A DNA stretch of 45,992 nucleotides from Oscillospiraceae bacterium. Lineage in GTDB: Bacteria; Bacillota; Clostridia; Oscillospirales; Ruminococcaceae. A program made the translations under genes and the position numbers. Where the stretch lies: the NCBI GenBank assembly GCA_009783205.1, contig WRHO01000013.1, forward strand, positions 1 through 45,992, in the 5' to 3' direction. Positions 8,102 through 32,340 of the stretch are shown in pieces; position 1 is the stretch's first letter; each line of letters begins with the position of its first letter. The notes under the pieces were generated by a model. It saw nothing but the letters and a program-made list of their open reading frames with translations, ran no database searches and was not told where the DNA came from.

Positions 8102-9366
8102 ACGTCGACTTCCTGTAGTCCCCAGCGAAGTGCGTCCCCCAAATTCTCCGAGGTTCGCCCCATAAAAACATCAACCACTACGAAACGGTCGGTATGATGT
8201 ATAAATCCACCCGTATCGGCGGCTATTGCCGCGCCGTATACCTTTGTGCCGCAGGTAGACATTATATATACGAGCGAGCCGTAGGGAATGATTTTGGGGT
8301 TGACGGCTACCGTCCCTATCTCGAGTCTTCTTCCGCTCGCCGTACCCGCACCCGACGGTGCGGTATAAGCGGTTGCTTTTCCGGTGTGCTTTGCTATATA
8401 ATCAATCGGGACGCCGTTTTCAAGGCGAATTTCGGGAAAGTCTTTCTTTGAATACGGTTCGCGTAACGCCATTCCGTGCGTAATAACCTTTGTTACCGCT
8501 TCCTTAGTTACCTTTTTGGATAAAACCTCCGAGGTCACAACTACGCCGTCAATCATCTTTTCGCGAAGCTTAATAGTGTATTCGCCGTCGCTTCCTTTTG
8601 AAATATCTGTATCGCCGATTGCCAACAGATTTGAAAACTCTACAGATGTTTCATAAGGTATTTCCTCATGATAGACTCTTTCGCGGGTAGTAACTCTGTT
8701 TATAACGACCTCGTCTCCTTGTGAAACGAACTCATCGAAGGGCATATTGATTATATCCCCTTTTCCTACAGACACGTCCGCCCTTTTTAAAATTTCGTCA
8801 ACCGTCGTTTCACCGTCCTTGAGAGTTCTGACCTTAACGCTTTCGCCGTCCGCTTTTACCTCAACGCCGAACCCCCGTATAATGTCAATTTTATTTTCGC
8901 CGGTTATAATAACATCAAATTCGCCTATTTCAACATCGCTCGCATCTAATATATCATTATAAGTCTCGCCGGGAACGGCACAAGTCGTAAAGGTATTTCC
9001 GTCGGCGGTTATATCAACGCCGAAGCCTTTCACAATCTCAATAGAGTTTTGTCCGTCTTTGTTTTTTTTGTGTACTACTTTGTCAAATTCACCGGGCAGA
9101 TACCCAAATTCTACAAGAATATCGTCCGCATCTTCTTTCATTGTGAAATATTTTTTTGTATACCCGTCATCCGTTATATAAACATCATTTCTGAAAAACA
9201 ACACACCCGTTAAAAGCGTTATCATAACGATGCAGGTTGTGGTTGCGACTATGCCGATGACCGCGTGTTTCCCCCATAATCGGTGTTGTCGTTTTATTCG
9301 GCTTAAACTTTGACTCAAACTTTGAAGAGTATTCTCGAGTCGGATAAGCCATATCTTTGGTGCCAA
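8074..9366 (-). CDS. YabE-like cell-wall protein: DUF348 repeats, G5 and 3D domains
   Basis: This 430-residue protein has an N-terminal membrane anchor (VIGIVATTTCIVMITLLTGV) and three DUF348 (YabE-type) repeats at about residues 60-230. A G5 domain follows (ERVYHEEIPYETSVEFS through EAVTKVITHG), then a C-terminal 3D domain. The 3D domain shows ASGRRLEIGTVAVNPKIIPYG, AIAADTGG and VVVDVFM, with the Asp residues that name it. This architecture is shared with Rpf-like and MltA-like resuscitation and lytic transglycosylase proteins, so peptidoglycan cleavage at the surface is expected. The start is a TTG at 9366 with AGGGGAG 7 nt upstream; a nearby ATG is out of frame. Confidence 0.9.
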   Translation of the reverse strand: MAPKIWLIRLENTLQSLSQSLSRIKRQHRLWGKHAVIGIVATTTCIVMITLLTGVLFFRNDVYITDDGYTKKYFTMKEDADDILVEFGYLPGEFDKVVHKKNKDGQNSIEIVKGFGVDITADGNTFTTCAVPGETYNDILDASDVEIGEFDVIITGENKIDIIRGFGVEVKADGESVKVRTLKDGETTVDEILKRADVSVGKGDIINMPFDEFVSQGDEVVINRVTTRERVYHEEIPYETSVEFSNLLAIGDTDISKGSDGEYTIKLREKMIDGVVVTSEVLSKKVTKEAVTKVITHGMALREPYSKKDFPEIRLENGVPIDYIAKHTGKATAYTAPSGAGTASGRRLEIGTVAVNPKIIPYGSLVYIMSTCGTKVYGAAIAADTGGFIHHTDRFVVVDVFMGRTSENLGDALRWGLQEVDVYVINSGIY

Positions 9367-9435
9367 AATGCATCTCCCCTTCCATATGTTGGGTATTATA
9401 CTTCATGATTCTGTTAATGTCAATACTTTGAAAGC

Positions 9436-9470
9436 AAAAAGGGCAGATTGTACAAATCTACCCTTTTATA
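9436..9470 (-). terminator. Terminator of cheV
   Basis: AAAAGGGTAGATT and AATCTGCCCTTT (minus-strand sense) form a ~12-bp stem with one C.A mismatch and flanking T/A runs, 40 bp past the cheV stop. It separates cheV from the 3D-domain gene. Confidence 0.75.
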
Positions 9471-9507
9471 TTTAAAAACATTCTATACTTTCTTGTTTAT
9501 ATCTTGT

Positions 9508-10422
9508 TCATCTCTCCGACATTAATTCAATCATCGTCTTTATACATTCGCTTAACTGCGCCCTTGAATACTGTGCGTCGGCACCCGCCGAATCGCCTTT
9601 TTGTCGCATATTGTCGTGAATAAGCGAGGAAAACATGATTATAGGCGTATTTGTCAATTCCTTATCCTTCTTGACTAATCGCACCAAGGTATGCCCGTCC
9701 ATCTGCGGCATTTCTATATCACAAACAATCCCGCCCAAGGTTTGTCGAAGCTCTGTGCCTTTAAGCCCCGAAATATGCGTCCACGCATCCTTACCGTTAT
9801 AAAATTGTGAAATATTTGTAAACCCGACCTTTTTAAAAGCGTCCGAGACTACCTTATTAAGGAACACCGAGTCTTCAATGATTAAAAGCTTCCTGCTGTA
9901 GTCAAATTCCGGCGGCGAGTAAATCTCACTGACCTCGCCTATTTCAAAATCTTTACCCGCGTTCATATCGCAGACAATCTTTTCGAAATCAAGAATCATT
10001 ATTATTTTTTCGTTAATTTTTGCGACGCCCGTAGCAAGACTGTTTTCGGTATTGCCGCTTATTGCCGGCGGTTTTTCCACCTGTGCCCATTTAAGCCGTT
10101 GAATCCCGTTGACGTTAGTAACGTCAAACGCGACGCTCACCTGGTCAAAATCGCACACAACCAAAAGCGTTCTCTCTCTCTCCGGTTTTTCAATTTCGAG
10201 AATCTCATGAAGGTCAATAACAGTCACGAGCTTATCCCTGTGCATGAAAACCCCTTCAACCGCTCTCGGTGCGCTCGGAACATGGGTTACATCACAATGT
10301 ATAATTATTTCGCTGACCTTTGCTATGTTAATGCCGAAGGATTCTTCACCCACTAAAAACTCAAGCAACTCAAGCTCACTCGGGTCAATCTCATTTTCAA
10401 CGCCGATATTTTCCATATTCAT
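9508..10422 (-). CDS. cheV: Chemotaxis protein CheV (CheW-REC fusion)
   Basis: This 304-residue protein has an N-terminal CheW-like domain (LLEFLVGEESFGINIAKVSEI through residue ~160) joined to a receiver domain. The receiver shows LLIIEDSVF, the phosphoacceptor region IVCDIEMPQMDG, IIMFSSL and a K/R-containing loop near QYSRAQL. CheV couples chemoreceptors to CheA and its receiver serves in adaptation. The gene stands alone with its own terminator; other chemotaxis genes are outside the window. The start has only a weak ribosome binding site (AAAGGACGG, 12 nt upstream). Confidence 0.93.
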   Translation of the reverse strand: MNMENIGVENEIDPSELELLEFLVGEESFGINIAKVSEIIIHCDVTHVPSAPRAVEGVFMHRDKLVTVIDLHEILEIEKPERERTLLVVCDFDQVSVAFDVTNVNGIQRLKWAQVEKPPAISGNTENSLATGVAKINEKIIMILDFEKIVCDMNAGKDFEIGEVSEIYSPPEFDYSRKLLIIEDSVFLNKVVSDAFKKVGFTNISQFYNGKDAWTHISGLKGTELRQTLGGIVCDIEMPQMDGHTLVRLVKKDKELTNTPIIMFSSLIHDNMRQKGDSAGADAQYSRAQLSECIKTMIELMSER

Positions 10423-22340: not shown

Positions 22341-23825
22341 ATGAACAACTTAAACAATTCTATTTATCACGACATAGCCAAAAGAACCGACGGGAATATT
22401 TATATCGGCGTAGTCGGGCCGGTACGCTCGGGAAAGTCTACCTTTATAAGCAAATTCATGAACAACATAGTTATACCCAACATCGAGTCGGAATTTCGCA
22501 AGGAGCGCGCGGTCGACGAACTGCCACAGTCGTCTGCCGGTAAGACAATAATGACGACCGAGCCTAAATTTATCCCCGAAGAAGCAATTTCGATTACGCT
22601 CGAGGATAATGCCGTTATGAACGTACGCTTGATTGATTGTGTGGGATATATTATCCCGAGTTCAATCGGCTATATAGAAAATGAAGCTCCGCGAATGGTT
22701 ATGACTCCGTGGTTTGATACCGAGATTCCGTTTAATATGGCGGCAGAGGTGGGTACCCAAAAGGTCATTAACGAACACTCTACCATAGGCTTGGTAATTA
22801 CTACCGACGGAAGTATTACCGATATTCCCCGTAGCGAATATGAGGAAGCCGAGGAGCGCGTTATAAATGAATTAGAAGCAATTAATAAGCCTTTTGTCAT
22901 TCTTTTAAACTGTCGCGACCCAAAGTCGGAGGACGCTAAGGAAACGGCAAAAGAGATGTGGGACAAATACGGTAAACCGGTTATCCCGCTTAATTGCATA
23001 GATTTAGACGAGGAGTCGATTAAGGATATAATGACCGAGGTCTTGCTCCAATTCCCCGTTAAGGAAATAAACATAAGGATTCCCAAATGGTTGACCGTTC
23101 TCGAAAAAGGACACTGGCTCAAAACGGAGGTTTGGAACGCGCTTAAAGAGTCGGCGGCTAATATAGTAAGCATTGACCAGGTTAAGGACGTTTCCTGTAA
23201 AGTCAACGACTGTGAATATGTGACGAGCTGTGACGTCGAGAGCATTGACTTAGGGCGCGGCGCGGGATTCATTTCGGTGAATTTGAAAAACGAATTGTTC
23301 TACCGTATACTGGGTGAAACGACCGGACTCGAGCTAAAAGACGAGGGCGACTTAATGCCGTGCATGATTGAATTAGCGAACATTAAAAAGAAATACATGA
23401 AGGTCAAATCGGCGTTAGACGAGGTAAAAGCAACCGGGTACGGAATCGTTATGCCGAGCATAGATGAGCTTACTCTCGAGGAGCCGGAAATTGTTAAGCA
23501 CGGCGGGAAATATGGTGTCCGGTTACAGGCGGCGGCTCCGTCGATTCATATGCTCGCGGCGAATATCACAACCGAGGTTTCACCGGTCGTAGGCTCGGAA
23601 CGCCAAAGCGAAGAACTCATCATGTATCTCCTAAAAGAGTTTGAAGAAAACCCGACAAAAATTTGGGAGTCGAATATATTCGGTAAGTCTTTACATGAGT
23701 TGGTCAACGAAGGGCTGCACAATAAGCTCTATCGTATGCCGGGCGACGCGAGAATGAAGCTGCAGGAGACTATACAGCGGATTATTAACGACGGCTGCGG
23801 CGGTTTGATTTGCATAATACTGTGA
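22341..23825 (+). CDS. spoIVA: Stage IV sporulation protein A
   Basis: This 494-residue protein is the coat-basement ATPase of endospore formers. It begins NNSIYHDIAKRTDGNIYIGV and carries the Walker A GPVRSGKSTFISKFM, DLDEESIKDIMTEVL in the middle domain and the C-terminal end NDGCGGLICIIL typical of SpoIVA. SpoIVA polymerises on the outer forespore membrane using ATP hydrolysis. TAGGAGGGGGC precedes the ATG. It is cotranscribed with sipL and ended by a strong terminator. Confidence 0.97.
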   Translation: MNNLNNSIYHDIAKRTDGNIYIGVVGPVRSGKSTFISKFMNNIVIPNIESEFRKERAVDELPQSSAGKTIMTTEPKFIPEEAISITLEDNAVMNVRLIDCVGYIIPSSIGYIENEAPRMVMTPWFDTEIPFNMAAEVGTQKVINEHSTIGLVITTDGSITDIPRSEYEEAEERVINELEAINKPFVILLNCRDPKSEDAKETAKEMWDKYGKPVIPLNCIDLDEESIKDIMTEVLLQFPVKEINIRIPKWLTVLEKGHWLKTEVWNALKESAANIVSIDQVKDVSCKVNDCEYVTSCDVESIDLGRGAGFISVNLKNELFYRILGETTGLELKDEGDLMPCMIELANIKKKYMKVKSALDEVKATGYGIVMPSIDELTLEEPEIVKHGGKYGVRLQAAAPSIHMLAANITTEVSPVVGSERQSEELIMYLLKEFEENPTKIWESNIFGKSLHELVNEGLHNKLYRMPGDARMKLQETIQRIINDGCGGLICIIL

Positions 23826-23959: not shown

Positions 23960-24169
23960 TTATATATTCGGGCATTTTGATTTCACCTCACCCACCGCAT
24001 GAGCGATAAACTCGCTCGTTGTAGGCGTTGCCCCCTTAGAATAGACTTGTCGCGCGTAAAAGTTCGGCTTTCTGTATGCGTGGGCAATTGCCGCCTGACA
24101 CTCCTCCCGCACTTCCTTAACACTTACGCCGTGTTCTCTTGCGACTCTTCTTGCTAATTTCCTGTTCAT
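23960..24169 (-). CDS. Stand-alone mini protein resembling the Spo0A DNA-binding domain
   Basis: This 69-residue protein reads MNRKLARRVAREHGVSVKEV, then CQAAIAHAY and KGATPTTSEFIAHAVGEVK. The layout VAxxxxxSVxxVxxxxxxAIxxAY...KGxxPTxxEFI follows the C-terminal part of Spo0A and of the response regulator at 26178 (IAKRYNKSVGSVNRAIETAI...KGTPTNKEFIFTLAN). There is no receiver domain. ATG 24169 is chosen because GCAGGAGG lies 9 nt upstream; a longer frame to 24232 has no such site. A strong promoter precedes it, and the kinase gene lies immediately upstream on the same strand. It might compete with the full-length regulator for DNA sites (inference). Other annotators may call it a hypothetical HTH protein. 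Confidence 0.75.
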   Translation of the reverse strand: MNRKLARRVAREHGVSVKEVREECQAAIAHAYRKPNFYARQVYSKGATPTTSEFIAHAVGEVKSKCPNI

Positions 24170-24272
24170 ACTTTCTAACCTCCTGCCGTATATCGGCATT
24201 TTAATATCAATGTTTCGGCAAATCATGAGCAAAAATTAAAAAAACAGAAATTTCGACTTGCCGTTATATGGT

Positions 24273-24301
24273 ATTATACAATCAACGAAAAGGTAAGTCA
24301 A
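24273..24301 (-). promoter_or_regulatory. Promoter of the mini Spo0A-C-like gene
   Basis: In minus-strand sense TTGACT (24296-24301), 17-bp spacer, TATAAT (24273-24278). An AGTCGAA heptamer (one mismatch to the Spo0A box TGTCGAA) lies just downstream at about 24252-24258. A TGCCG-ATATA-CGGCA hairpin abuts the ribosome binding site. Confidence 0.82.
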
Positions 24302-24340
24302 GTAAAAAGGAAAAAGTTGTTGAATTTTCTGTTATCCCTT

Positions 24341-24347
24341 TGTCGAA
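24341..24347 (+). promoter_or_regulatory. Perfect Spo0A-box heptamer
   Basis: TGTCGAA, identical to the Spo0A box core, lies between the kinase stop codon and the mini HTH promoter, about 75-80 bp upstream of the expected transcription start. Perfect heptamers are expected about five or six times by chance in a window this size, so position is the only support. Confidence 0.35.
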
Positions 24348-24354
24348 TTATCTG

Positions 24355-25857
24355 TTATTTTGCCGCCACTTCCAAGCCTTGAATAGTGAATCTTGTGTTC
24401 GCTTTCAGCTTTTTGAGTGTTTTCGCTCGGAATGACTTTATAATGCATTCCGCGTTTCTGTCGAAACAAATCGTTATGTCTTTTGAGTAATCATAGGGCA
24501 TGGGTTCGTATTCGGTGATGATTAGACTCGCTTTATATTCGTCAAGCAAACCGAAAATTGTTTCATAACCATAACCACTTCCGCCGCTGTCCGCGTGTGA
24601 AGTCACCCGCTCTGTCCCCAATTTAAGAAGAACATCAGCATTGAACGGTATCCCGCTGTCAGAAGCGGTCAATTCATAACCGTCATCGCTTTCCGCAATT
24701 ATAAACCGTACTTTACGGCAGGGTTGGGGTTGGTTTAGGTTAAGATTATGAATCGCAATAAAAGCGTTTTCAGCAAAATCCCCGATAATGTTGATTAGCT
24801 CGACTTCATGGATAGTTTCACAAAATCTGCTAACATCGCCGTGGACTTTAAGTTCAAAATCAACACTCTTCAACATCGCCTTTTCAGCTACCGTTTCAAA
24901 TTGTGAATCAATCATCATGATTCCTGTCTGTGGAAGGGGTTGACCGCCGTACATATTTCTATTTTTGTCTGTCTTTTTCTTTGAAAATTCAAGCTGTTCA
25001 AGGAATTTTTGAGCGTCGTCCAAAACATCAGCCTGCTCCGAACGCATGACGAGCTTTTCAACCGTTCGCCGCATACCGTCTAATATTTTCGCATTTTGGT
25101 GGTCTGTCGAAGCCAAGGCGTTTTGCAGATTTTTCAACACAGCAATGTCTTTTTCTTTTTGCTCAAGAATCGTTTGTTGTTTTTTATGAATCACATCATT
25201 AGCGTTTTCGTATTTAGAGATTGTCGTTTCCCGTCTTAGCCAACTGTAAATACCGTACCCGAGCATTGCAAACCCGGCTGTTATCAAAGCAAATCTTTCC
25301 CATGATTCTCCCATTTCAACTCTTGAAAATCCATAAAGAATTATAATAAGGCTGCTTATTGATAAAAAGATTCCGCTTGAAAATTTCTTGAAAAGATGAT
25401 TTAAATTTACTTTAATTTTTGTTAATAAGATAGCGATAATAATACTGATAATACCGGTTATAACAAAACGAATACTATCATAAGAAGCATCTTCTGTTAT
25501 GCCGAATGGTAACAATACAGGATATGAAATCACAATACCAAAAAGATGAACGATATAGCTTGAAGCATAAACAACCGTAAATGCTGTAAGTGTTTTTTCA
25601 ATTCGCTTTTTAAGAAAAAACGAAAAAACAATACTTGCGGCAAAAATCACAATTGCTGTTCTGTACGGTTCGGCAACAACAAGAATATTCGACAATACTA
25701 AAAATGCTGTTGTTGATAAGACGGTAAAAGCCGTATACAGCAACGATTTTTTCTTAATGCTAAGATTCAACGGTCTGACCTTATTAAGAAAAAGAAAGCT
25801 GACCGTTGCAATGGTAAAATGTTTTACAACTTCATTAAATAACGCTATATCTGACAC
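24355..25857 (-). CDS. Seven-TM GHKL-type sensor histidine kinase
   Basis: The 500-residue protein has about seven hydrophobic segments in residues 1-210, a coiled coil (KKQQTILEQKEKDIAVLKN), and an atypical phosphoacceptor region LASTDHQNAKILDGM with a candidate His. The ATPase domain has N-box NIIGDFAENAFIAI, TASDSGIPF and GGSGYGYETIFGLL. This is the layout of AgrC/SpoOB-class kinases that sense peptides through polytopic membrane domains. The gene starts with GTG 25857, with a G-rich run directly adjacent, so the exact start is uncertain. Divergent micro-ORFs and a Spo0A-like response regulator are its immediate neighbours, implying one signalling unit. Ligand unknown. Confidence 0.82.
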   Translation of the reverse strand: MSDIALFNEVVKHFTIATVSFLFLNKVRPLNLSIKKKSLLYTAFTVLSTTAFLVLSNILVVAEPYRTAIVIFAASIVFSFFLKKRIEKTLTAFTVVYASSYIVHLFGIVISYPVLLPFGITEDASYDSIRFVITGIISIIIAILLTKIKVNLNHLFKKFSSGIFLSISSLIIILYGFSRVEMGESWERFALITAGFAMLGYGIYSWLRRETTISKYENANDVIHKKQQTILEQKEKDIAVLKNLQNALASTDHQNAKILDGMRRTVEKLVMRSEQADVLDDAQKFLEQLEFSKKKTDKNRNMYGGQPLPQTGIMMIDSQFETVAEKAMLKSVDFELKVHGDVSRFCETIHEVELINIIGDFAENAFIAIHNLNLNQPQPCRKVRFIIAESDDGYELTASDSGIPFNADVLLKLGTERVTSHADSGGSGYGYETIFGLLDEYKASLIITEYEPMPYDYSKDITICFDRNAECIIKSFRAKTLKKLKANTRFTIQGLEVAAK

Positions 25858-25869
25858 CCCCTAACTCTT

Positions 25870-25913
25870 ATCGACAAAATTCTACACGATTGAATGACGT
25901 TTTTTGCTATAAC
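25870..25913 (+). promoter_or_regulatory. Candidate activated promoter of the micro-ORF transcript
   Basis: An extended -10 (TTGCTATAAC, core 25908-25913, with TG at 25905-25906) has no recognisable -35. ATCGACA (25870-25876), one mismatch from the Spo0A box complement TTCGACA, would be centred near -46. That is a typical position for an activator that replaces the -35. Confidence 0.4.
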
Positions 25914-25951
25914 ATCACTCTTCTTTCTGATAATCTTAGTAGGTAATCGGT

Positions 25952-25988
25952 TTTCACAAACCGAATTGCGGCAAGTAGGTTTGTGAAA
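25952..25988 (+). promoter_or_regulatory. Hairpin adjoining the first micro-ORF ribosome binding site
   Basis: TTTCACAAACC (25952-25962) and GGTTTGTGAAA (25978-25988) form an 11-bp perfect stem with a 15-nt loop. The 3' arm runs into the AAAGGAG ribosome binding site. Only copy 1 has the 5' arm, because the 91-bp duplication begins exactly at the loop (25963). Confidence 0.75.
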
Positions 25989-26001
25989 GGAGCGTTTCGG
26001 T

Positions 26002-26046
26002 ATGTCAGGATTTCTTAGTTGGTTTTTTCGTGCTATGTCGTTTTAA
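26002..26046 (+). CDS. Micro-ORF 1, 14-residue peptide MSGFLSWFFRAMSF
   Basis: ATG 26002 is preceded by AAAGGAG with a 9-nt spacing, and the frame closes at TAA 26046. An in-frame TGA 16 nt upstream of the ATG excludes a longer protein. The peptide is hydrophobic and aromatic with one Arg and no cleavable signal or Cys. It is followed 46 bp later by a near-identical copy. Between the copies the Ala codon differs synonymously (GCT/GCA), hinting at selection for the peptide. It is divergent from a seven-TM kinase gene and convergent with a Spo0A-like regulator gene. I infer a signalling peptide; a small membrane-active toxin or PSM-like peptide is the main alternative. Confidence 0.6.
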   Translation: MSGFLSWFFRAMSF

Positions 26047-26092
26047 TTAAATTGAATTGCGGCAAGTAGGTTTGTGAAAGGAGCGTTTCGGT

Positions 26093-26137
26093 ATGTCAGG
26101 ATTTCTTAGTTGGTTTTTTCGTGCAATGGCACTTTAA
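26093..26137 (+). CDS. Micro-ORF 2, 14-residue peptide MSGFLSWFFRAMAL
   Basis: This is the second copy in the tandem duplication, with the same AAAGGAG ribosome binding site and spacing. Residues 1-12 are identical to copy 1 and the last two are AL instead of SF. It lacks the upstream arm of the hairpin that flanks copy 1, so it may be translated more freely. A 12-bp terminator stem begins 13 bp after its stop. Confidence 0.6.
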   Translation: MSGFLSWFFRAMAL

Positions 26138-26149
26138 TTAAGAACACAG

Positions 26150-26188
26150 GCAGGGCATGACAAGATGGCTACATTAGTCATGCCCTGC
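26150..26188. terminator. Convergent terminator between the micro-ORFs and the response regulator
   Basis: GCAGGGCATGAC (26150-26161) pairs perfectly with GTCATGCCCTGC (26177-26188) around a 15-nt loop, followed by ATAATTTCTT. The right arm encodes the last residues and stop of the convergent regulator gene. The T-tracts are weak. Confidence 0.7.
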
Positions 26189-26975
26189 ATAATTTCTTAA
26201 ACTCATTCGCCAAGGTGAAAATAAATTCCTTGTTGGTCGGTGTCCCTTTTGAGCCGCTGACCGCGGCGGGGTAAAACTCATTCAGAGTTTCGTCGCCGGT
26301 GATACACCACGCTTTGTTGATTGCGGTTTCAATCGCGCGGTTGACGCTCCCGACGGATTTATTGTACCTCTTGGCTATTATAGGGAAAACGTCCCTGTGG
26401 AGATTGATGTCATCTTTGTTAGACTGCGTAACGATTGAAACGGACTCGTTGACGTACTTTTTGCCGAGCATATCGTCAGTGAATCCGATTTTATCTATTC
26501 TCAATTTGATTTCATCTTCTAAGGACAGTTGTTTTTTAACTTTAACAGTCGTTTTAGACTGCTTTTTCGTCTTGTAATCGTAAACGGTGCAAATATGCTC
26601 CATGACTAATTTCGGGGAGTAATCCCGCTTACCCTTCCAAAAGACATAATCAGCCCCGCCTGTTCTTGCGTCTTCCCTCACAACCGGCGAGCGGTTATGT
26701 GTCGCGACAACGACATACGGCTTGTCCGGGAGCTTTAATTGAGTGAGCTTTTTTAGGAAAATCAATCCGTCGCCGTCACTCTCATGCAGTTCGAGGTCGA
26801 GAATAATCGCATCAAATGGGAATTTCTGAACAAGGGAAAGTGCTTCGGATTCACCCTCAGCCATGTAAAAACTGACGGGATAACCCAAAGTCGGACTCAG
26901 TGTTTTTATGTACTCCTTGAACTCAAGACGGTAATGACTTTCGTCCTCAACCAACAGGAGCATCATCTGTTGCAC
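26178..26975 (-). CDS. Response regulator with Spo0A-like output domain
   Basis: The protein (265 residues) has a receiver domain with LLLVEDE (acidic pair), AIILDLELHES (phosphoacceptor Asp), VVVATHN and WKGKRD (conserved Lys). The C-terminal domain runs from about residue 145: LRIDKIGF, then NLHRDVFPIIAKRYNKSVGS, AIETAINKAW and KGTPTNKEFIFTLANEF, closely following the Spo0A DNA-binding domain. It is not Spo0A itself: the linker and receiver are divergent and the usual Spo0A neighbours are missing. I take GTG 26975, which has GAGGTG 6 nt upstream; the frame extends to an ATG at 27011 without a ribosome binding site. A Spo0A box sits inside its own promoter. Confidence 0.85.
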   Translation of the reverse strand: MQQMMLLLVEDESHYRLEFKEYIKTLSPTLGYPVSFYMAEGESEALSLVQKFPFDAIILDLELHESDGDGLIFLKKLTQLKLPDKPYVVVATHNRSPVVREDARTGGADYVFWKGKRDYSPKLVMEHICTVYDYKTKKQSKTTVKVKKQLSLEDEIKLRIDKIGFTDDMLGKKYVNESVSIVTQSNKDDINLHRDVFPIIAKRYNKSVGSVNRAIETAINKAWCITGDETLNEFYPAAVSGSKGTPTNKEFIFTLANEFKKLCRA

Positions 26976-27073
26976 AGCACTCACCTCGCTTTTTCGCGAT
27001 TTTTCATACATACTATAATGTCAAGCGGACTGCTTACCGGCAGAGCCGGCAACACCTCCGCCCTTCTTTTACC

Positions 27074-27102
27074 ATTATACCATTATGTCGAATCAAAGTC
27101 AA
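27074..27102 (-). promoter_or_regulatory. Promoter of the Spo0A-like regulator with an internal Spo0A box
   Basis: In minus-strand sense TTGACT (27097-27102), 17-bp spacer, TATAAT (27074-27079). The spacer contains a perfect Spo0A box (TGTCGAA on the plus strand, 27086-27092). Binding there should block RNA polymerase, so negative autoregulation is expected. Confidence 0.75.
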
Positions 27103-27181
27103 TAGGACGCAAGCAGTTTTTTGAAAATCAATGTTTCGGCAGGTTGAATAACGCAATGTTTTAACGATAGGAGCTGCAAAA

Positions 27182-27547
27182 ATGCGGTCTATAGACGATA
27201 TACAGGAGCAAATTGAAATTGCCGGGCGGCTCCGGATGCTCAGGAATGCGAGAGGGTTCACCCAAAAGGAAATGGCAGAAGCGCTGAATATGTCCTACCA
27301 TACCTATGTCAAGTTAGAAAACGCCTCTCACGGGCTTACCACGAAGAATATTATGAAGCTATGTAAATTCCTAAATGTTTCGGCTGATATGCTGCTGTTT
27401 GGGAGGACGGACAATGACAGCATCAACTTTGACGAGTATGTGAAATGTGCGGAGCTGTTATCCAATGACGGGGTGAAGGCAATTGAGGACAGCGTGGTTC
27501 TTATAAAGAAGCTTAGGGGGTTGGAGTTGAGTAAACAGGTGGAGTGA
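27182..27547 (+). CDS. XRE-family transcriptional regulator
   Basis: This 121-residue protein has an N-terminal helix-turn-helix (LRMLRNARGFTQKEMAEALN then YHTYVKLENASHGL and LCKFLNVSADMLLFG) and a C-terminal helix-rich tail (SNDGVKAIEDSVVLIKKLRG). It is divergent from the Spo0A-like regulator; the 206-bp gap holds that gene's promoter. AGGAG lies 8 nt before the ATG. A weak promoter (TTGAAA, 17 bp, TTGAAT) precedes it. It may add a second input to the peptide locus or control the ABC operon that follows on the other strand (inference). Confidence 0.88.
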   Translation: MRSIDDIQEQIEIAGRLRMLRNARGFTQKEMAEALNMSYHTYVKLENASHGLTTKNIMKLCKFLNVSADMLLFGRTDNDSINFDEYVKCAELLSNDGVKAIEDSVVLIKKLRGLELSKQVE

Positions 27548-27576: not shown

Positions 27577-28185
27577 TCACAAAGCCTTCCAATAATAAAC
27601 CGCCAACTGCGTTCTGTCACGCAATGACAACTTTTCGAGTATAACCGATACGCTGTTTCGGACAGTCCCCGCCGACAAAAACAGCTTTTCTGCAATTTCG
27701 TTGTTGGATAATCCCGCCGCGACCAATGCAAGAATCTCATTTTCGCGCTCGGTAAGCTCGTCAAAAAACACAGATTTCTCCTGCACGGAATTACCCGACA
27801 GCTTCACGCCTTTATCGAACACCAACGCGCCTTTCTCGACCGCACGAATACGCTCGATAATCCCGTCGGCGGGAGTGCTTTTAAGCAAGTACCCCTCTGC
27901 GCCCGCAGAGATTGCGGAGGAAATGTACCCCTCATCATTAAAAGTGGTGAGCATAATTATTTTAGTACAGGGGAAGTCGGTTTTAATTTTTCGGGTCGCT
28001 TCAACTCCGTCAACTACGGGCATACGAATATCCATCAGAATCATATCGGGCAAATCCGCTACACAAGCGTCATAAGCGGATGAACCGTTCTCGGCGGTGC
28101 GAACGCTCCAGCCCTCTTTTGTTTCAAATAAAATCTTCAAGCTGTCGCGAATAAGCCCGTCATCATCGACTATAAGTAGCTTCAT
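27577..28185 (-). CDS. NarL/LuxR-type response regulator
   Basis: This protein (202 residues) has a receiver domain (KLLIVDDDGLIRDSLKILF, phosphoacceptor in LPDMILMDIRMPVVDGVEAT, IIMLTTFNDEGYI, KSTP) and a C-terminal LuxR HTH (LTERENEILALVAAGLSNNE, IAEKLFLSAGTVRNSVSVIL). ATG 28185 is used because GAGGTC lies 7 nt upstream, 11 bp past the kinase stop; the longer frame to 28221 would run into the kinase gene. It is the last gene of a five-gene minus-strand operon (ATPase, two permeases, kinase, regulator) and probably activates that operon. Confidence 0.92.
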   Translation of the reverse strand: MKLLIVDDDGLIRDSLKILFETKEGWSVRTAENGSSAYDACVADLPDMILMDIRMPVVDGVEATRKIKTDFPCTKIIMLTTFNDEGYISSAISAGAEGYLLKSTPADGIIERIRAVEKGALVFDKGVKLSGNSVQEKSVFFDELTERENEILALVAAGLSNNEIAEKLFLSAGTVRNSVSVILEKLSLRDRTQLAVYYWKAL

Positions 28186-28196
28186 GTTGTTAGACC

Positions 28197-29141
28197 TCAC
28201 CCTCTTTTTGGCAATATACATACGATTTTGAATCCGCTGTCGTTGCTTACGGTAATACTCCCGCCGACGGCTTGAACGCGCTCTTTCATACCCCTCAACC
28301 CTAATCCCAATTTTGGATTGTTTTTTACGCCATTTACATTGCCGTTATCGGAAACGGTCATTCTGATATAATCGGCGTTGGAATCCACGCGGACTTTTAC
28401 TGTGGTCGCGGTTGAATGTCGGACAATGTTCGTCAACGCTTCTTTGAGATTAGCAACCAAAATTTCACCATGAATTACATCACCCGAAGATGTAAAACTT
28501 ATATTGCAAAACTCGAAATTATCGCATAATTCCTGTAATATTTCTAAGTCCGACTTTTTGGCGGGTTTAAGATTATGAACCGTTTCGCGTAGATTTACAG
28601 AAGCCGATTCGAGCCGCTTGACAGTCTGCGAGAGCAATTCACCTGCGCGGCTGTCGCCCGACTCGTACAGCGATAATGCAGTCTGAACGGCAATCAACGC
28701 TCCCGTGACTTCGTGTCCTACATGGTCGTGAATGTCCTGTGCAATTCTTGCGCGCTCGTTGATTTGAGCTAATTGCTCCGCGTTCTTTCTTTCGAGTGCG
28801 ACTGTCGCTTGTTGCTTTTCTAATTTCAGTCGTTGCGCCCTGTCGTCATAGTCTTTCATGAGTAATTCTTGTTCGAGTTCGCTCCACCTGTCTTCGAGTA
28901 ATCCGAGTAAGGGAAGCCACAACCCTAACAAAGCGGGAAGCCAAATAAAAGCGTACCCGACGCATATAAGAATTTCTGCAAGCATCAAGATTTTATATAA
29001 TTTAAATCTGTAACGCGCCGCCGACAGCGCAGTTAAAACCAATATAAACGCAACGCCCGAAAGGGGACTGTCGGTCAGCCCCCAAGTAATGATTAGAATT
29101 GCTCCCGTAAATAATCGGGCGAATATTGCGTAGTTTTTCAT
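28197..29141 (-). CDS. DesK/NarX-type sensor histidine kinase
   Basis: This 314-residue protein has about four N-terminal membrane segments, a short coiled coil (residues ~95-125) and a HisKA_3 domain with ERARIAQDIHDHVGHEVTG (phosphoacceptor His in DIHDHVGH). The HATPase has NLKEALTNIVRHS (N-box), VSDNGNVNG and GLGLRGMKERV. It has no large extracellular sensor domain, the pattern of intramembrane-sensing kinases that work with ABC exporters in envelope-stress responses. It lies between the permease and regulator genes of the same operon. Confidence 0.92.
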   Translation of the reverse strand: MKNYAIFARLFTGAILIITWGLTDSPLSGVAFILVLTALSAARYRFKLYKILMLAEILICVGYAFIWLPALLGLWLPLLGLLEDRWSELEQELLMKDYDDRAQRLKLEKQQATVALERKNAEQLAQINERARIAQDIHDHVGHEVTGALIAVQTALSLYESGDSRAGELLSQTVKRLESASVNLRETVHNLKPAKKSDLEILQELCDNFEFCNISFTSSGDVIHGEILVANLKEALTNIVRHSTATTVKVRVDSNADYIRMTVSDNGNVNGVKNNPKLGLGLRGMKERVQAVGGSITVSNDSGFKIVCILPKRG

Positions 29142-29153
29142 ATAATCGTATTT

Positions 29154-30254
29154 TTAATCTTCCATGCGCTGAACTTTTTTAATCCCACCGATTAACAGTG
29201 TCACAATGGTAAATCCCGCTAAAAACAGCAACGGCATAACAAACCCTTCAAACGTAATATCGCGGACATTGCGTAACCCCTCACCGAACCAGTAACCGGG
29301 GGTAAACCACGCGATTTTCTTCATAAGAGCGGGGACGAGCTCTAATGGCCAAAACAAACCGCCGAGCATTGCCGTCAATGTTGCAATCATGACCATTGCG
29401 ATTGACGCACCGGCAAGACTTTTCGCGATTGAAGTAATCGACAGCACAAGACTGACCGAGAACAAATTGAACAAGCTCAACAACACAAACATCATTATAA
29501 CATTCGGGATTGTTCCTAAAACCAACCACAGCGAAACTAATGTCAACACGACCGTTATTTCGGTGACAAGAAATGCCGCTAACGTGCTTTGTGTGAGGTA
29601 ATTCCGCTGATGAATCGGCAGAACGCCCACACGGTCGGGCATACCGAGCTTCTTGTCGTCAAGCAAGGTTTTGATTACGAAGTAAGCCGTGAAAATTGAA
29701 ATGTAACCGAACATCGAGAGCCATTGCGCGATTGATACCCAGTTGTCGTTAACGGCGGCGACGGTGACTTCGAGCCGTGACGTTTCTTCCCACTGCGAAA
29801 GAATCTGCTCGTTGTTTGTACCGAGAATCATTAAAGCGCGGGTGATGTTTTCTGCAGAAGTTTTACCCATAACCGACACGTCGCTGATTGTCAAAGAATA
29901 GCTTTCGAGCGAGTCAAGCGCGGTATTTCTTGTCATGACGTCGCGTTCATATCCCTCTTTGATTAATATGACGCACGGGAAAAGCTGATTCGTCAATTGC
30001 GCGGCAATATCGGATTCGTCAACCTCTTTAATATTATACCGCAAACCGAGCTGATTTGCAAGCGTTTTAGACAAAACCGAATTATCGTTGTCAACAATTC
30101 CGAAAAAGGCGTCGTTTGTGGTAGCGTCGTTTTGCGTCTCGCCGCCTGTGGACATTGACACTAAAACATAGCACAAAATCGGGAAGACCATTATAAAAAC
30201 CCAGTTGAGCGGCTGTTTTAGAATCCGCTTGAGCGTAGTTGTAAATACCGTCAT
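29154..30254 (-). CDS. ABC-2 type transporter permease
   Basis: This 366-residue permease has one N-terminal membrane segment (PLNWVFIMVFPILCYVLVSM), a large extracytoplasmic domain (residues ~40-165), then five or six membrane segments ending with a helix at FLAGFTIVTLLIGGIKKV. This is the ABC2_membrane_3 layout used by exporters of lipids, peptides or drugs. The start overlaps the preceding permease gene by 4 bp. It would pair with its paralogue at 30251 as a heterodimeric channel. Substrate unknown; export of the nearby micro-peptides is possible but unsupported beyond proximity. Confidence 0.88.
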   Translation of the reverse strand: MTVFTTTLKRILKQPLNWVFIMVFPILCYVLVSMSTGGETQNDATTNDAFFGIVDNDNSVLSKTLANQLGLRYNIKEVDESDIAAQLTNQLFPCVILIKEGYERDVMTRNTALDSLESYSLTISDVSVMGKTSAENITRALMILGTNNEQILSQWEETSRLEVTVAAVNDNWVSIAQWLSMFGYISIFTAYFVIKTLLDDKKLGMPDRVGVLPIHQRNYLTQSTLAAFLVTEITVVLTLVSLWLVLGTIPNVIMMFVLLSLFNLFSVSLVLSITSIAKSLAGASIAMVMIATLTAMLGGLFWPLELVPALMKKIAWFTPGYWFGEGLRNVRDITFEGFVMPLLFLAGFTIVTLLIGGIKKVQRMED

Positions 30255-31360
30255 TTTGAAATCCTCCTTTTGCCGAGTAAAAACGCGAGAATGAACAGCA
30301 CCGCGCTGTATACAAACAGCAGAGCCAAGTCGGACATCATTTTAGTTTCGTTACCGCCAAAAATGCTGCCGAATATAACCGTGTGAGCCAACGAATTCGG
30401 CGAGTATTGAAAGACGTTGTTCATTTCGCCGAAGTCGATTTTTACATAACCGCCCGCAACGAATGTCATGACCCATATGATACACTGCATTCCCCCCATT
30501 GCCGCATTCGGACTTTTTAAGAGCAAAATCATAAAAATCGCAAACACTTGACTGAACAATGTCACGCCGAAAAGTGTCAGCAAAACAAGGTGAATTCGTT
30601 CGCCCCAGTACACCCCATAAACCGCCCAACTAAACAAAAACGTAATCATTCCTTGAATATAAGCGGTCACGGTTGCCGCCGCCAATAATCCGCCGATTAG
30701 GGCGGGTTTGGAAACGGGGGTTGTGAGCGTTCTCGCGCCTGTCTGTGAGAACAGCCCCTTTTCAAAGACGTTCAGTCCGTTCGTCCCCGCGAACATCAAA
30801 ATCATCACGAGCATTGTCACGGCGTAATAGTCGATTGCGCCGGGTACGCGATTTCCGAGAGGCGATTCGACCACCGATATGTTCGACTCAATTAACGGCA
30901 TTAACTCCGCGGGGTTCTCGCCGTTTTTGATTGCCGTTTCCATAGCCGCGCTGATTTGCGAGTAAGAATCAACTACCGACATTGCGATTTGCGTGGAAAG
31001 GTTGCCCACGGGCGGTCTTGTGACAGACAAATCTGTACCGACAATTATATTCACTTCCCCGTCCTCTAACAATTCAAGCGCGGTTAAATTATCGGTGTAA
31101 ATCACGTTTATAATGTTGATTTCTTTCAGGAATGTCCCCAATGCGTTGTGCTCGGAATTCGTTTCCGAAATAACGGCAATACCGATTTTTTCGCCCTCTT
31201 CAAAGTCATATTCGGGCGAAATATATCCGCTTAGAGCGTTACCGAGTACAAAGATAATCAGAATCGGGAACGCGAGCAGCATGACTATGCCCATGCGGTC
31301 GCTCCAACAATACTTGAAGCTGTTTTTGAATACCGTTAAAAAATCCCTCATGCCCCTCAT
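30251..31360 (-). CDS. ABC-2 type transporter permease
   Basis: This 369-residue paralogue of the next permease has N-terminal membrane segment GIVMLLAFPILIIFVLGNAL, an extracytoplasmic domain (residues ~45-170) and about six membrane segments in the C-terminal half, ending with FVYSAVLFILAFLLGKRR. It overlaps the ATPase gene by 4 bp upstream and the second permease by 4 bp downstream, so the three transporter genes are translationally coupled. Confidence 0.88.
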   Translation of the reverse strand: MRGMRDFLTVFKNSFKYCWSDRMGIVMLLAFPILIIFVLGNALSGYISPEYDFEEGEKIGIAVISETNSEHNALGTFLKEINIINVIYTDNLTALELLEDGEVNIIVGTDLSVTRPPVGNLSTQIAMSVVDSYSQISAAMETAIKNGENPAELMPLIESNISVVESPLGNRVPGAIDYYAVTMLVMILMFAGTNGLNVFEKGLFSQTGARTLTTPVSKPALIGGLLAAATVTAYIQGMITFLFSWAVYGVYWGERIHLVLLTLFGVTLFSQVFAIFMILLLKSPNAAMGGMQCIIWVMTFVAGGYVKIDFGEMNNVFQYSPNSLAHTVIFGSIFGGNETKMMSDLALLFVYSAVLFILAFLLGKRRISK

Positions 31361-32295
31361 AAAGAATCCCCCTCGCCGTCACGGAGTTTTTTCCCTGTCA
31401 GTGCCAAAAACGCGTCTTCTAATGTCGCTTTTTTCGCCGAAACGCCGAGGATTACATAAGGCGCGGCAATTTCAAGAATCCTTGCGATATTTCCCGAAGC
31501 GGCTGTGCTTGTGACCGTCACAATCCTGTTTTGTACATCACAATGCAAAACCCCCTGTACTTTCTTTATGCTTTCGGGCAAGCTCGGAGCGGGCTCTTTG
31601 ACTTCTAATGTAACCGTTTCCTCAAAAATCACCGAGCGGGTTAATTCAGCTACGCCGCCGTCGGCGATTACCCGACCCTCGTCCATTATACAGACCCGTG
31701 AACACACCCTCTCGACTTCTTCCATGTAATGCGAAGTGTATAATACAGTCGTACCCTGCTTGTTAATATTGGTGACAAAGTCGAGAATGTGATTGCGGGA
31801 CTGCGGGTCAATGCCCACGGTCGGTTCGTCAAGAATGAGCAGCTCGGGTTTGTGTATAATCGCACAGCCTATGTTGAGTCTGCGTTTCATTCCCCCCGAA
31901 AACTTCTTGGGGGCTTTGTTTGCAACGTCGGAAAGTCCGAGTATTTCGAGCGTTTCATCAACCCGTGATTTTAGCATACTCCCGTGAACGCCGTACAGCT
32001 TGCCGAAATATTCGATGTTATCTCTTGCGGACAGTGTTTCGTATAAAGCCAAGTCTTGCGGAACAGTGCCGATTCTGCGTTTGGCGTCATTCCCGAGTTT
32101 GTCCGCCCCGAATAATGTAACTTTTCCTGCGTCCGCATTTGTCAACCCCGTTAATACGCGGATTGAAGTGGATTTCCCCGCACCGTTCGGCCCGAGAAGT
32201 CCTATGACCTCGCCTTGTTTTACTGTTAAATTAAGATGGTCGAGTGCGGTTTGGTTTTTATAGCGTTTTACTACATCGGTCATTGTTACTATCAT
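31357..32295 (-). CDS. ABC exporter ATP-binding protein
   Basis: This ATPase (312 residues) of the DrrA/CcmA type shows Walker A GLLGPNGAGKSTSI, Q-loop TVPQDLALYETLSARDNI, signature FSGGMKRRLNIGCA, Walker B LLILDEPTVGIDPQS and H-loop YTSHYMEEVE. A C-terminal ~75-residue tail is typical of export ATPases. ATG 32295 (second in-frame ATG) has GGAG 7 nt upstream; the first ATG at 32301 is too close. It heads the coupled exporter/two-component operon. The DrrAB-like layout with a DesK-type two-component system suggests resistance to, or export of, a membrane-active compound. Confidence 0.92.
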   Translation of the reverse strand: MIVTMTDVVKRYKNQTALDHLNLTVKQGEVIGLLGPNGAGKSTSIRVLTGLTNADAGKVTLFGADKLGNDAKRRIGTVPQDLALYETLSARDNIEYFGKLYGVHGSMLKSRVDETLEILGLSDVANKAPKKFSGGMKRRLNIGCAIIHKPELLILDEPTVGIDPQSRNHILDFVTNINKQGTTVLYTSHYMEEVERVCSRVCIMDEGRVIADGGVAELTRSVIFEETVTLEVKEPAPSLPESIKKVQGVLHCDVQNRIVTVTSTAASGNIARILEIAAPYVILGVSAKKATLEDAFLALTGKKLRDGEGDSL

Positions 32296-32340
32296 GGTCA
32301 TTCTCCTCTGCTTATTGTGATGTTGTTAGTATATCATAAA

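Follow-up and report, generated by a model that had tools for sequence, protein, structure and literature searches.

The locus described here raises the question of whether a pair of very short open reading frames (ORFs), lodged between the genes for a membrane histidine kinase (HK) and a response regulator (RR), encodes the signal to which that kinase responds. It lies at positions 23,960 to 27,547 of a 45,992-nucleotide stretch of DNA from an Oscillospiraceae bacterium (contig WRHO01000013.1), the whole of which is called the window below. An initial annotation, made from the sequence letters, had described an HK with seven predicted helices, two tandem 14-codon ORFs, an RR with a Spo0A_C DNA-binding domain and an XRE regulator, and this content was found as described, with one correction: HK and RR share a strand, and the micro-ORFs are on the other one. 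Computation established that the linkage is conserved, that the ORFs have coding character and their peptides helical amphipathicity, and that the peptide co-occurs with the kinase and covaries with its sensor. In our reading the locus represents a group of related peptide-kinase-regulator circuits found in Clostridia, in which a leaderless amphipathic micropeptide serves as the HK ligand, a reading to which we assign a probability of roughly 0.6; this ligand is probably a secreted pheromone.

Searches with the kinase identified positive genomes in 9 of 99 genus and order relatives (15 loci), in 10 of 394 genomes of the order, 11 of 391 of the class and 4 of 396 of the family, with the window's own genome counted in each of these and with E cut-offs that differ among the searches; in one large Clostridia genus, g260, 73 of the 146 species sampled carry the kinase. 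A further search covering three of six genomes revealed no new locus. Altogether, 105 distinct kinase loci were collected (L044 included), five of which are cut by contig ends (L048, L052, G1289, L056 and L057). The check proposed in the initial annotation, namely whether a short aromatic ORF accompanies the kinase in relatives, was answered in the affirmative: 93 of the 100 examinable loci carry a micro-ORF of 11-19 codons, with a ribosome-binding site, upstream of the kinase, and nearly all of these are aromatic. The contributing sets are genus and order (14 of 15), order (7 of 10), class outside g260 (2 of 3), family (1 of 1), g260 (69 of 70) and L044 (0 of 1). L019, whose ORF overlaps the RR end, was counted by eye, as were L015, L017, L055 (poor in aromatics) and the loci without an RR, and L086 and L105 were counted from a looser scan. 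Kinase and micro-ORF occur together under five further family codes (f1, f2, f14, f63 and f90), and the encoded peptides include MQGFLNFFYFFARLL (L012), MWEWIGRLFGIL (L018), MWDWLFRLMFP (L030), MWQGFLNFFGAFLAK (L025), MNWYEDFLWWLKYWLY (L047), MLDWFDAMCKWLSFWL (L071) and MSFWEWILYILR (L045).

An automatic rule, fixed after the first loci had already been viewed, was then applied to the HK-RR gaps with L034 skipped, accepting ORFs of 10-20 amino acids with a binding-site match of at least 5 and at least two residues of W, F or Y. Under this rule 47 of 50 gaps contain a qualifying ORF, whereas 200 dinucleotide-shuffled sets average 6.2 and never exceed 14, and control stretches of equal size qualify in 6 of 49 cases downstream of HK and 2 of 27 upstream of RR. 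A stricter rule demanding three aromatics including W is satisfied by 41 of 50 gaps versus 1.1 (maximum 4) in shuffles, with 1 of 49 and 0 of 27 in the respective controls. The figures given so far support the proposal of a conserved unit made up of micro-ORF, kinase and Spo0A_C regulator.

The character of the peptides was examined in 79 ORFs picked from 84 loci with an adjacent RR. Tryptophan accounts for 19% of residues after the start and is contained in 76 of the 79 peptides, cysteine is missing from 69, and the net charge of 68 lies between -2 and +1. Compared with shuffled peptides, the helical hydrophobic moment reaches a z of +2.4 at 100 degrees (above 1 in 72 of 79), with +1.2 at 90 and +1.8 at 110 degrees and values about zero or negative at ten other angles, a peak that points to selection for one face of an alpha-helix. 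At the DNA level, differences at codon positions 1, 2 and 3 amount to 0.34, 0.28 and 0.41, and 0.62 in the flanks (116 pairs from 49 sequences, chosen by DNA identity, Trp and Met codons excluded). The ratio of nonsynonymous to synonymous differences (pN/pS) is 0.41 in frame versus 0.85 in the +1 frame (39 pairs); since these pairs were picked by protein identity this ratio is biased, and the codon-position count is the better evidence. Together, these comparisons support the view that the micro-ORFs behave as coding sequence.

The linkage between peptide and kinase was also evident from their joint distribution. In g260, a pattern running from the ribosome-binding site through the start codon to the first Trp codon was matched in 33 of 73 kinase-positive versus 2 of 73 kinase-negative genomes (Fisher p 5e-10), and in all 33 a match lies no more than about 300 bases from the kinase, G1240 having an extra match elsewhere. 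Both kinase-negative matches lie beside an RR at a contig end, so that the absence of the kinase probably reflects the assembly alone. Furthermore, peptide distances were compared with those of the sensor (HK residues 1-212) in Mantel tests with 499 permutations and a resulting p floor of 0.002, L102 being excluded because its sensor is incomplete. With kinase core and RR held constant, the partial r between peptide and sensor is 0.25 (p 0.002) both in g260 (n=58) and at the other loci (n=20), and 0.21 (p 0.005) when the 78 loci are pooled; neither set displays a significant partial correlation of the peptide with the core or RR (p at least 0.15). When the sensor is divided, its outer half correlates with the peptide after control for inner half, core and RR (r 0.23 and 0.28; p 0.002 in both sets), and the inner half given the outer half and the rest does not reach significance (p 0.17 and 0.11). 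These results support the suggestion that peptide divergence follows the kinase sensor, and chiefly its outer half.

The proposed receptor is only weakly recognised by Pfam, through HATPase_c (E 0.0088; 16.9 bits versus a cut-off of 26.4). Of 57 kinases, HATPase_c is matched by 49 and HATPase_c_5 by 10, and H253, D400, G402 and G426/G428/G430 are invariant in 57 relatives. The AlphaFold model of the HK (57 relatives; mean pLDDT 85.7) displays seven long N-terminal helices, which we read as membrane helices, followed by the kinase module. The net charge averaged over 78 kinases is +5.6 for putative inside loops and -0.8 for outside loops, and hence an N-out, kinase-in topology fits. All PDB matches listed (8; best 50 of 401) cover the kinase part, and no solved counterpart of the membrane sensor is among them. 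At one locus three kinase genes are arranged consecutively (L033, L036 and L037; G294:C1:564180-569900), one of them with an internal stop, together with a single RR and a single peptide. At L043, two complete kinase-regulator units adjoin in one metagenome-assembled genome, and the loci matching them, L014 and L024, encode different peptides.

The RR matches Response_reg (E 7.7e-9) and Spo0A_C (E 5.2e-19), and in 13 sequences D23, D72, T104 and K126 are invariant and E22 is nearly so. Its domain composition is that of Spo0A; however, it attains just 83.3 bits on the Spo0A equivalog model TIGR02875, which requires 200, and it is thus ruled out as Spo0A itself. Indeed, a genuine Spo0A is also present in all 22 kinase-bearing genomes checked, the window's genome included. 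The same genomes all possess SpoIVA, although the presence of both proteins in 22 of 22 says little because all were chosen among kinase-bearing Clostridia. The initial annotation had suggested a sporulation output, the locus being just downstream of spoIVA. In the other 21 genomes spoIVA resides on a different contig or at least 32 kb from the kinase, so that the neighbourhood gives no reason to regard the circuit as sporulation-specific; with an RR that is not Spo0A, this suggestion finds no support. Cores resembling the 0A box, TGTCGAA, are found in 12 of 61 g260 gaps versus 0.9 in shuffles, and a wider 0A pattern, picked after leader inspection, in 27 of 61 versus 1.6. These cores fit regulation by a Spo0A_C protein in g260, and for the window the same inference from sequence is weak.

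Two further genes had been assigned to the circuit. The XRE protein, of 121 amino acids, matches helix-turn-helix (HTH) models only (HTH_3, E 7.4e-12), and an XRE-type gene recurs among the g260 loci of a 20-locus neighbourhood set. It stands divergent from RR at 11 of 11 g260 loci (L134 with an intervening gene), in the window, at L137 (about 0.7 kb off) and at L142; it should be borne in mind that the profile was built from the window, L142, L137, L135, L132, L127, L129, L136 and L133, which match by construction. The gene was not found beside RR at L038, L039, L042, L043, L138, L140, L141, L143 and L144, and for L040 and L041 the search had just 0.6 and 0.3 kb beyond RR to cover. With nine loci where it was not found, a universal role for XRE is ruled out. 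The mini Spo0A_C-like protein scores 19.9 bits against Spo0A_C (cut-off 25), covering profile positions 37-100 of 104 (about 60%). Using 23960-24175, two codons longer than the best ORF, family and genome searches matched it in 4 of 70 genus genomes, of which one is that of the window; the matches in the other three have 35-37% identity. The contiguous gene set initially envisaged can therefore be retained in part: XRE belongs to the locus in some lineages, and the unconserved mini protein is probably no part of the circuit, its suggested role as an antagonist finding no support. Its start, formerly placed at 24232, fits better at 24169, where AGGAGG precedes an ATG.

In the circuit that we propose, the 14-residue peptide, encoded twice in the window, would be translated, leaderless, from its own strong ribosome-binding site, would form an aromatic amphipathic helix and would then be released. 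It would bind the adjacent membrane kinase, mainly at the outer side of the membrane domain, and the kinase would phosphorylate the adjacent Spo0A_C regulator (H253 to D72). The phosphorylated RR would then control the peptide gene and other targets via its Spo0A_C domain, resulting in a density- or state-dependent feedback switch to which the divergent XRE protein may add control in some lineages. Secretion, binding, phosphotransfer, DNA sites and feedback are the steps of this scheme that we infer.

The main rival to a secreted pheromone is a micropeptide that is not secreted, inserting instead in the membrane of its producer to regulate the kinase there, as MgrB and SafA do with PhoQ. Amphipathic Trp-rich helices bind membranes, no exporter was recognised among the recurrent families at the loci, and this explanation predicts the same sensor covariation. 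On the other hand, 11-19 residues are short for a transmembrane helix, and the outer sensor half shows stronger covariation than the inner one, while the tandem near-identical copies in the window and the several distinct peptide-kinase pairs per genome suit a secreted signal at least as well; overall, we regard intramembrane action as unlikely. Rather improbable, in our estimate, is an effector role, in which an antimicrobial or a surfactant resembling phenol-soluble modulins (PSMs) would be produced under two-component control and detected by the kinase to achieve autoregulation or to protect the producer. Such a role would suit the amphipathic aromatic character, and leaderless bacteriocins and PSMs exist; however, genes for immunity or transport were not recognised among the recurrent families at the loci, the net charges given above are unlike those of cationic antimicrobial peptides, and an effector would not need specific covariation with the sensor.

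The high Trp content might equally bring to mind leader peptides for Trp- or Phe-dependent attenuation or nascent-chain stalling, as might the U-run hairpin that precedes the ORF in same-strand loci. This hairpin, however, is upstream of the ORF and not downstream, the ORF of the window and of 12 other loci among the 79 lies opposite HK and RR and leads into neither, and the 100-degree periodicity indicates selection on the peptide and not on codons alone; we therefore give this explanation very little credence. Short ORFs are common in AT-rich intergenic DNA, as is clear from the 6.2 of 50 gaps that qualify after shuffling, but an origin by chance is contradicted for the family by the 47 of 50 real gaps, by the helical periodicity and codon-position pattern and by the distribution in 33 versus 2 of 73 genomes, and is the least credible explanation of all.

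Several observations weigh against the peptide as a secreted HK ligand. Seven loci possess no recognisable peptide (L013, L033, L037, L034, L054, L081 and L044), among them two tandem kinase copies (L033 and L037) and one locus without a gap and with a stop in its kinase frame (L034). The window HK forms a long branch in the kinase tree and shares 29-32% identity with its top matches among genus and order relatives; because no close relative is among these, the two ORFs of the window are beyond testing by close orthologues. In the pooled 78 loci, weak correlations of the peptide with core (0.14, p 0.015) and RR (0.15, p 0.01) also appear, the inner sensor half correlates when the outer half is left free (r 0.18; p 0.002 and 0.032), and the outer half is the more variable of the two, which favours it in the Mantel test. 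The enrichment of TGTCGAA is confined to g260 (elsewhere 2 of 22 versus 0.5, not significant), and the core is seen in just 2 of 12 RR-XRE intergenic stretches. Finally, no export or processing gene was recognised among the recurrent families, annotated in part, at 20 loci.

The features of the locus in the window are collected in Table 1. In both micro-ORFs AAAGGAG is positioned 9 nt 5' of the ATG, and each tandem unit comprises leader, ribosome-binding site and most of one micro-ORF. When the rest of the genome was searched for another copy of the 14-mer, only weak matches emerged (E 0.036 or worse).

Table 1. Features of the kinase locus and its surroundings in the window.
Feature	Position	Strand	Remark
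spoIVA	22341-23825	+	ORF list
Mini Spo0A_C-like ORF, 69 aa	23960-24169	-	AGGAGG ahead of ATG; probably not in the conserved unit
HK, membrane histidine kinase, proposed peptide receptor	24355-25857	-	GTG start, 500 aa
0A-box-like TTGTCGA between kinase and micro-ORFs	25871-25877	-	Weak; 19 such sites in the window
Two 91-nt tandem units (25947-26037 / 26038-26128)	25947-26128	+	91% identity
Micro-ORF 1, 14 codons, MSGFLSWFFRAMSF	26002-26046	+	AAAGGAG at 25986-25992
Micro-ORF 2, 14 codons, MSGFLSWFFRAMAL	26093-26137	+	AAAGGAG at 26077-26083
Strong inverted repeat 3' of the micro-ORFs, overlapping the RR stop	26138-26200	+	Probable terminator
RR, receiver and Spo0A_C DNA-binding domain, proposed effector	26178-27011	-	Pfam matches
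Promoter-like site of RR, TTGACT-17-TATAAT	27074-27102	-	11/12 consensus matches
XRE (HTH_3) regulator gene, divergent from RR; accessory part	27182-27547	+	Pfam match

Folding of 25890-26200 is 5.2 standard deviations better than that of shuffles, with a contribution from inverted-repeat pairing. The inverted repeat that follows the micro-ORFs is unlisted by the terminator scan, its loop and tail falling outside the scan rule, and comparison of the leader with known RNA families produced no match at gathering scores. A hairpin with the arms TTTCACAAACC and GGTTTGTGAAA (25952-25988) has its end directly at the ribosome-binding site that serves micro-ORF 1, and the left of its two arms is also able to pair with the equivalent stretch of the second tandem unit; translational control by this hairpin is possible. 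A TGTCGAA core (27086) lies inside the spacer of the promoter-like site of RR, where its weight is small because the motif is present 12 times in the window. A 22-nt near-repeat with the core TCAATGTTTCGGCA is found at 24199-24220 and 27120-27141, upstream of the mini Spo0A_C gene and of the RR/XRE pair, respectively, and is possibly a shared operator.

Among the 79 loci, the micro-ORF shares the strand of HK in 66 and lies opposite in 13, the window among the latter. The peptide strand has switched at least twice on the kinase tree, in which L053, L011 and L035 are long branches. Of the 66 same-strand leaders, 64 were located, and in 38 of these a hairpin that has TACC/GGTA at its base and carries a U-run stands about 40-68 nt before the micro-ORF; its carriers are L014, L028, L029 and g260 leaders, for example L068:1170-1277. 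Changes on both sides were seen in 5 of 8 pairs among leaders selected for that hairpin, and such covariation counts lean towards it because the alignment consists of the 38 of 64 leaders that meet the TACC/GGTA rule. The hairpin may be an RR terminator, an attenuator or a protein site. At L201 (3676-3927) the kinase and its RR are about 2.8 kb apart, and between them are three tandem micro-ORFs, MYDRIVDIVKDCLRST, MYDRIVNIMKECLRVGG and MWHRIIDIFRDCAGST, with few aromatics and a Cys in each.

The wider neighbourhood was surveyed at 20 loci of 11.7-16 kb, with the kinase in all by selection and RR in most, and annotation covered, in part, the families common to at least three loci. Those in three to six loci, nearly all in g260 only, include a YgjP-like metallopeptidase (6 loci), a low-molecular-weight phosphatase, radical SAM, NUDIX and HD-domain proteins, a PD-(D/E)XK transposase, an iron alcohol dehydrogenase and some without a clear match, and look like shared housekeeping genes rather than circuit parts. 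RR and kinase are separated at L126 by a transposase gene of the PD-(D/E)XK family (8762-9691), and at L134 by a gene of the same cluster. In the window, the locus is adjoined at 27577-32301 by a LuxR-type two-component system with an ABC transporter, for which Pfam identifies the ATPase and at least one ABC-2 membrane protein, with a second ORF alongside.

With regard to known systems, the linked peptide and the putative phospho-His (H253) and phospho-Asp (D72) of a general peptide-sensing two-component system are all found here, and the circuit works like such a system while departing from Agr, double-glycine and RRNPP systems in at least one tested defining feature each. As in Agr, a short peptide, a polytopic kinase with a HATPase-type domain and a response regulator are encoded by linked genes. 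However, the output domain is Spo0A_C (the RR of the window and one g260 relative) and not LytTR, ORFs of 11-19 amino acids leave no room for a precursor leader and 69 of 79 are devoid of Cys, and AgrB is not among the recurrent families annotated in part at 20 loci, no AgrB model having been searched. The AgrC-type HATPase_c_5 is, as stated, matched by 10 of 57 kinases, the window HK matching HATPase_c alone. The double-glycine leader of ComCDE and Blp cannot fit in 11-19 amino acids, and no dedicated ABC exporter/protease was recognised among the recurrent families, annotated in part. RRNPP and Rgg-SHP systems differ in their cytosolic TPR receptor with an HTH; the XRE protein of the present loci has the HTH only and is not at all loci, and the covariation is with the kinase sensor, the XRE protein being outside that test. 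Spo0A itself is resembled in the pairing of receiver and Spo0A_C and in the 0A-like cores enriched at g260 loci, and differs in model score and in its separate presence in the same genomes. Leaders of the TrpL/TnaC type lead into the regulated gene on their own strand, which the opposite-strand ORFs of the window and of 12 other loci among the 79 do not.

Of the leaderless signals, SIP of Streptococcus pyogenes comes closest. Its receptor RopB is a cytosolic Rgg-type regulator, and SIP has 8 residues and is encoded beside ropB. SIP is described as a secreted leaderless peptide that acts as a quorum signal (PMC6565748). The proposed receptor in our case is, in contrast, a membrane kinase with a response regulator, and the peptides have 11-19 residues. 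SafA is a small protein acting on PhoQ. MgrB, described as a 47-residue membrane protein inhibiting PhoQ (PMC8404706), offers a parallel in being very small and dedicated to a single membrane kinase; the peptides here differ from it in their length of 11-19 residues, their amphipathicity and the fixed place of their genes next to the kinase. An overview of quorum sensing by two-component systems names LytTR, GerE, Trans_reg_C and sigma-54 types among other regulator output domains, with no Spo0A_C among those named in the section concerned (PMC8895600). No description of the present system was found in the literature, the search covering open-licence papers only, so that this absence is not proof.

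We would give even odds to the joint claim that these loci represent a previously undescribed class of cell-cell signalling, in which secreted, unprocessed, leaderless and mostly Trp-rich amphipathic 11-19-mers from several Clostridia families are each read by their own co-evolving membrane kinase through a Spo0A_C regulator other than Spo0A, genes for processing or export not being a fixed component of the locus. Gram-positive peptide pheromones are usually found via their precursors, processing enzymes or exporters. The present family would escape ordinary gene callers, since its ORFs have 11-19 codons and processing or export genes are not fixed at the locus. Its peptides can be deduced straight from the DNA, their synthesis and testing cost little, and the family would also suggest an input for one of the non-Spo0A Spo0A_C regulators.

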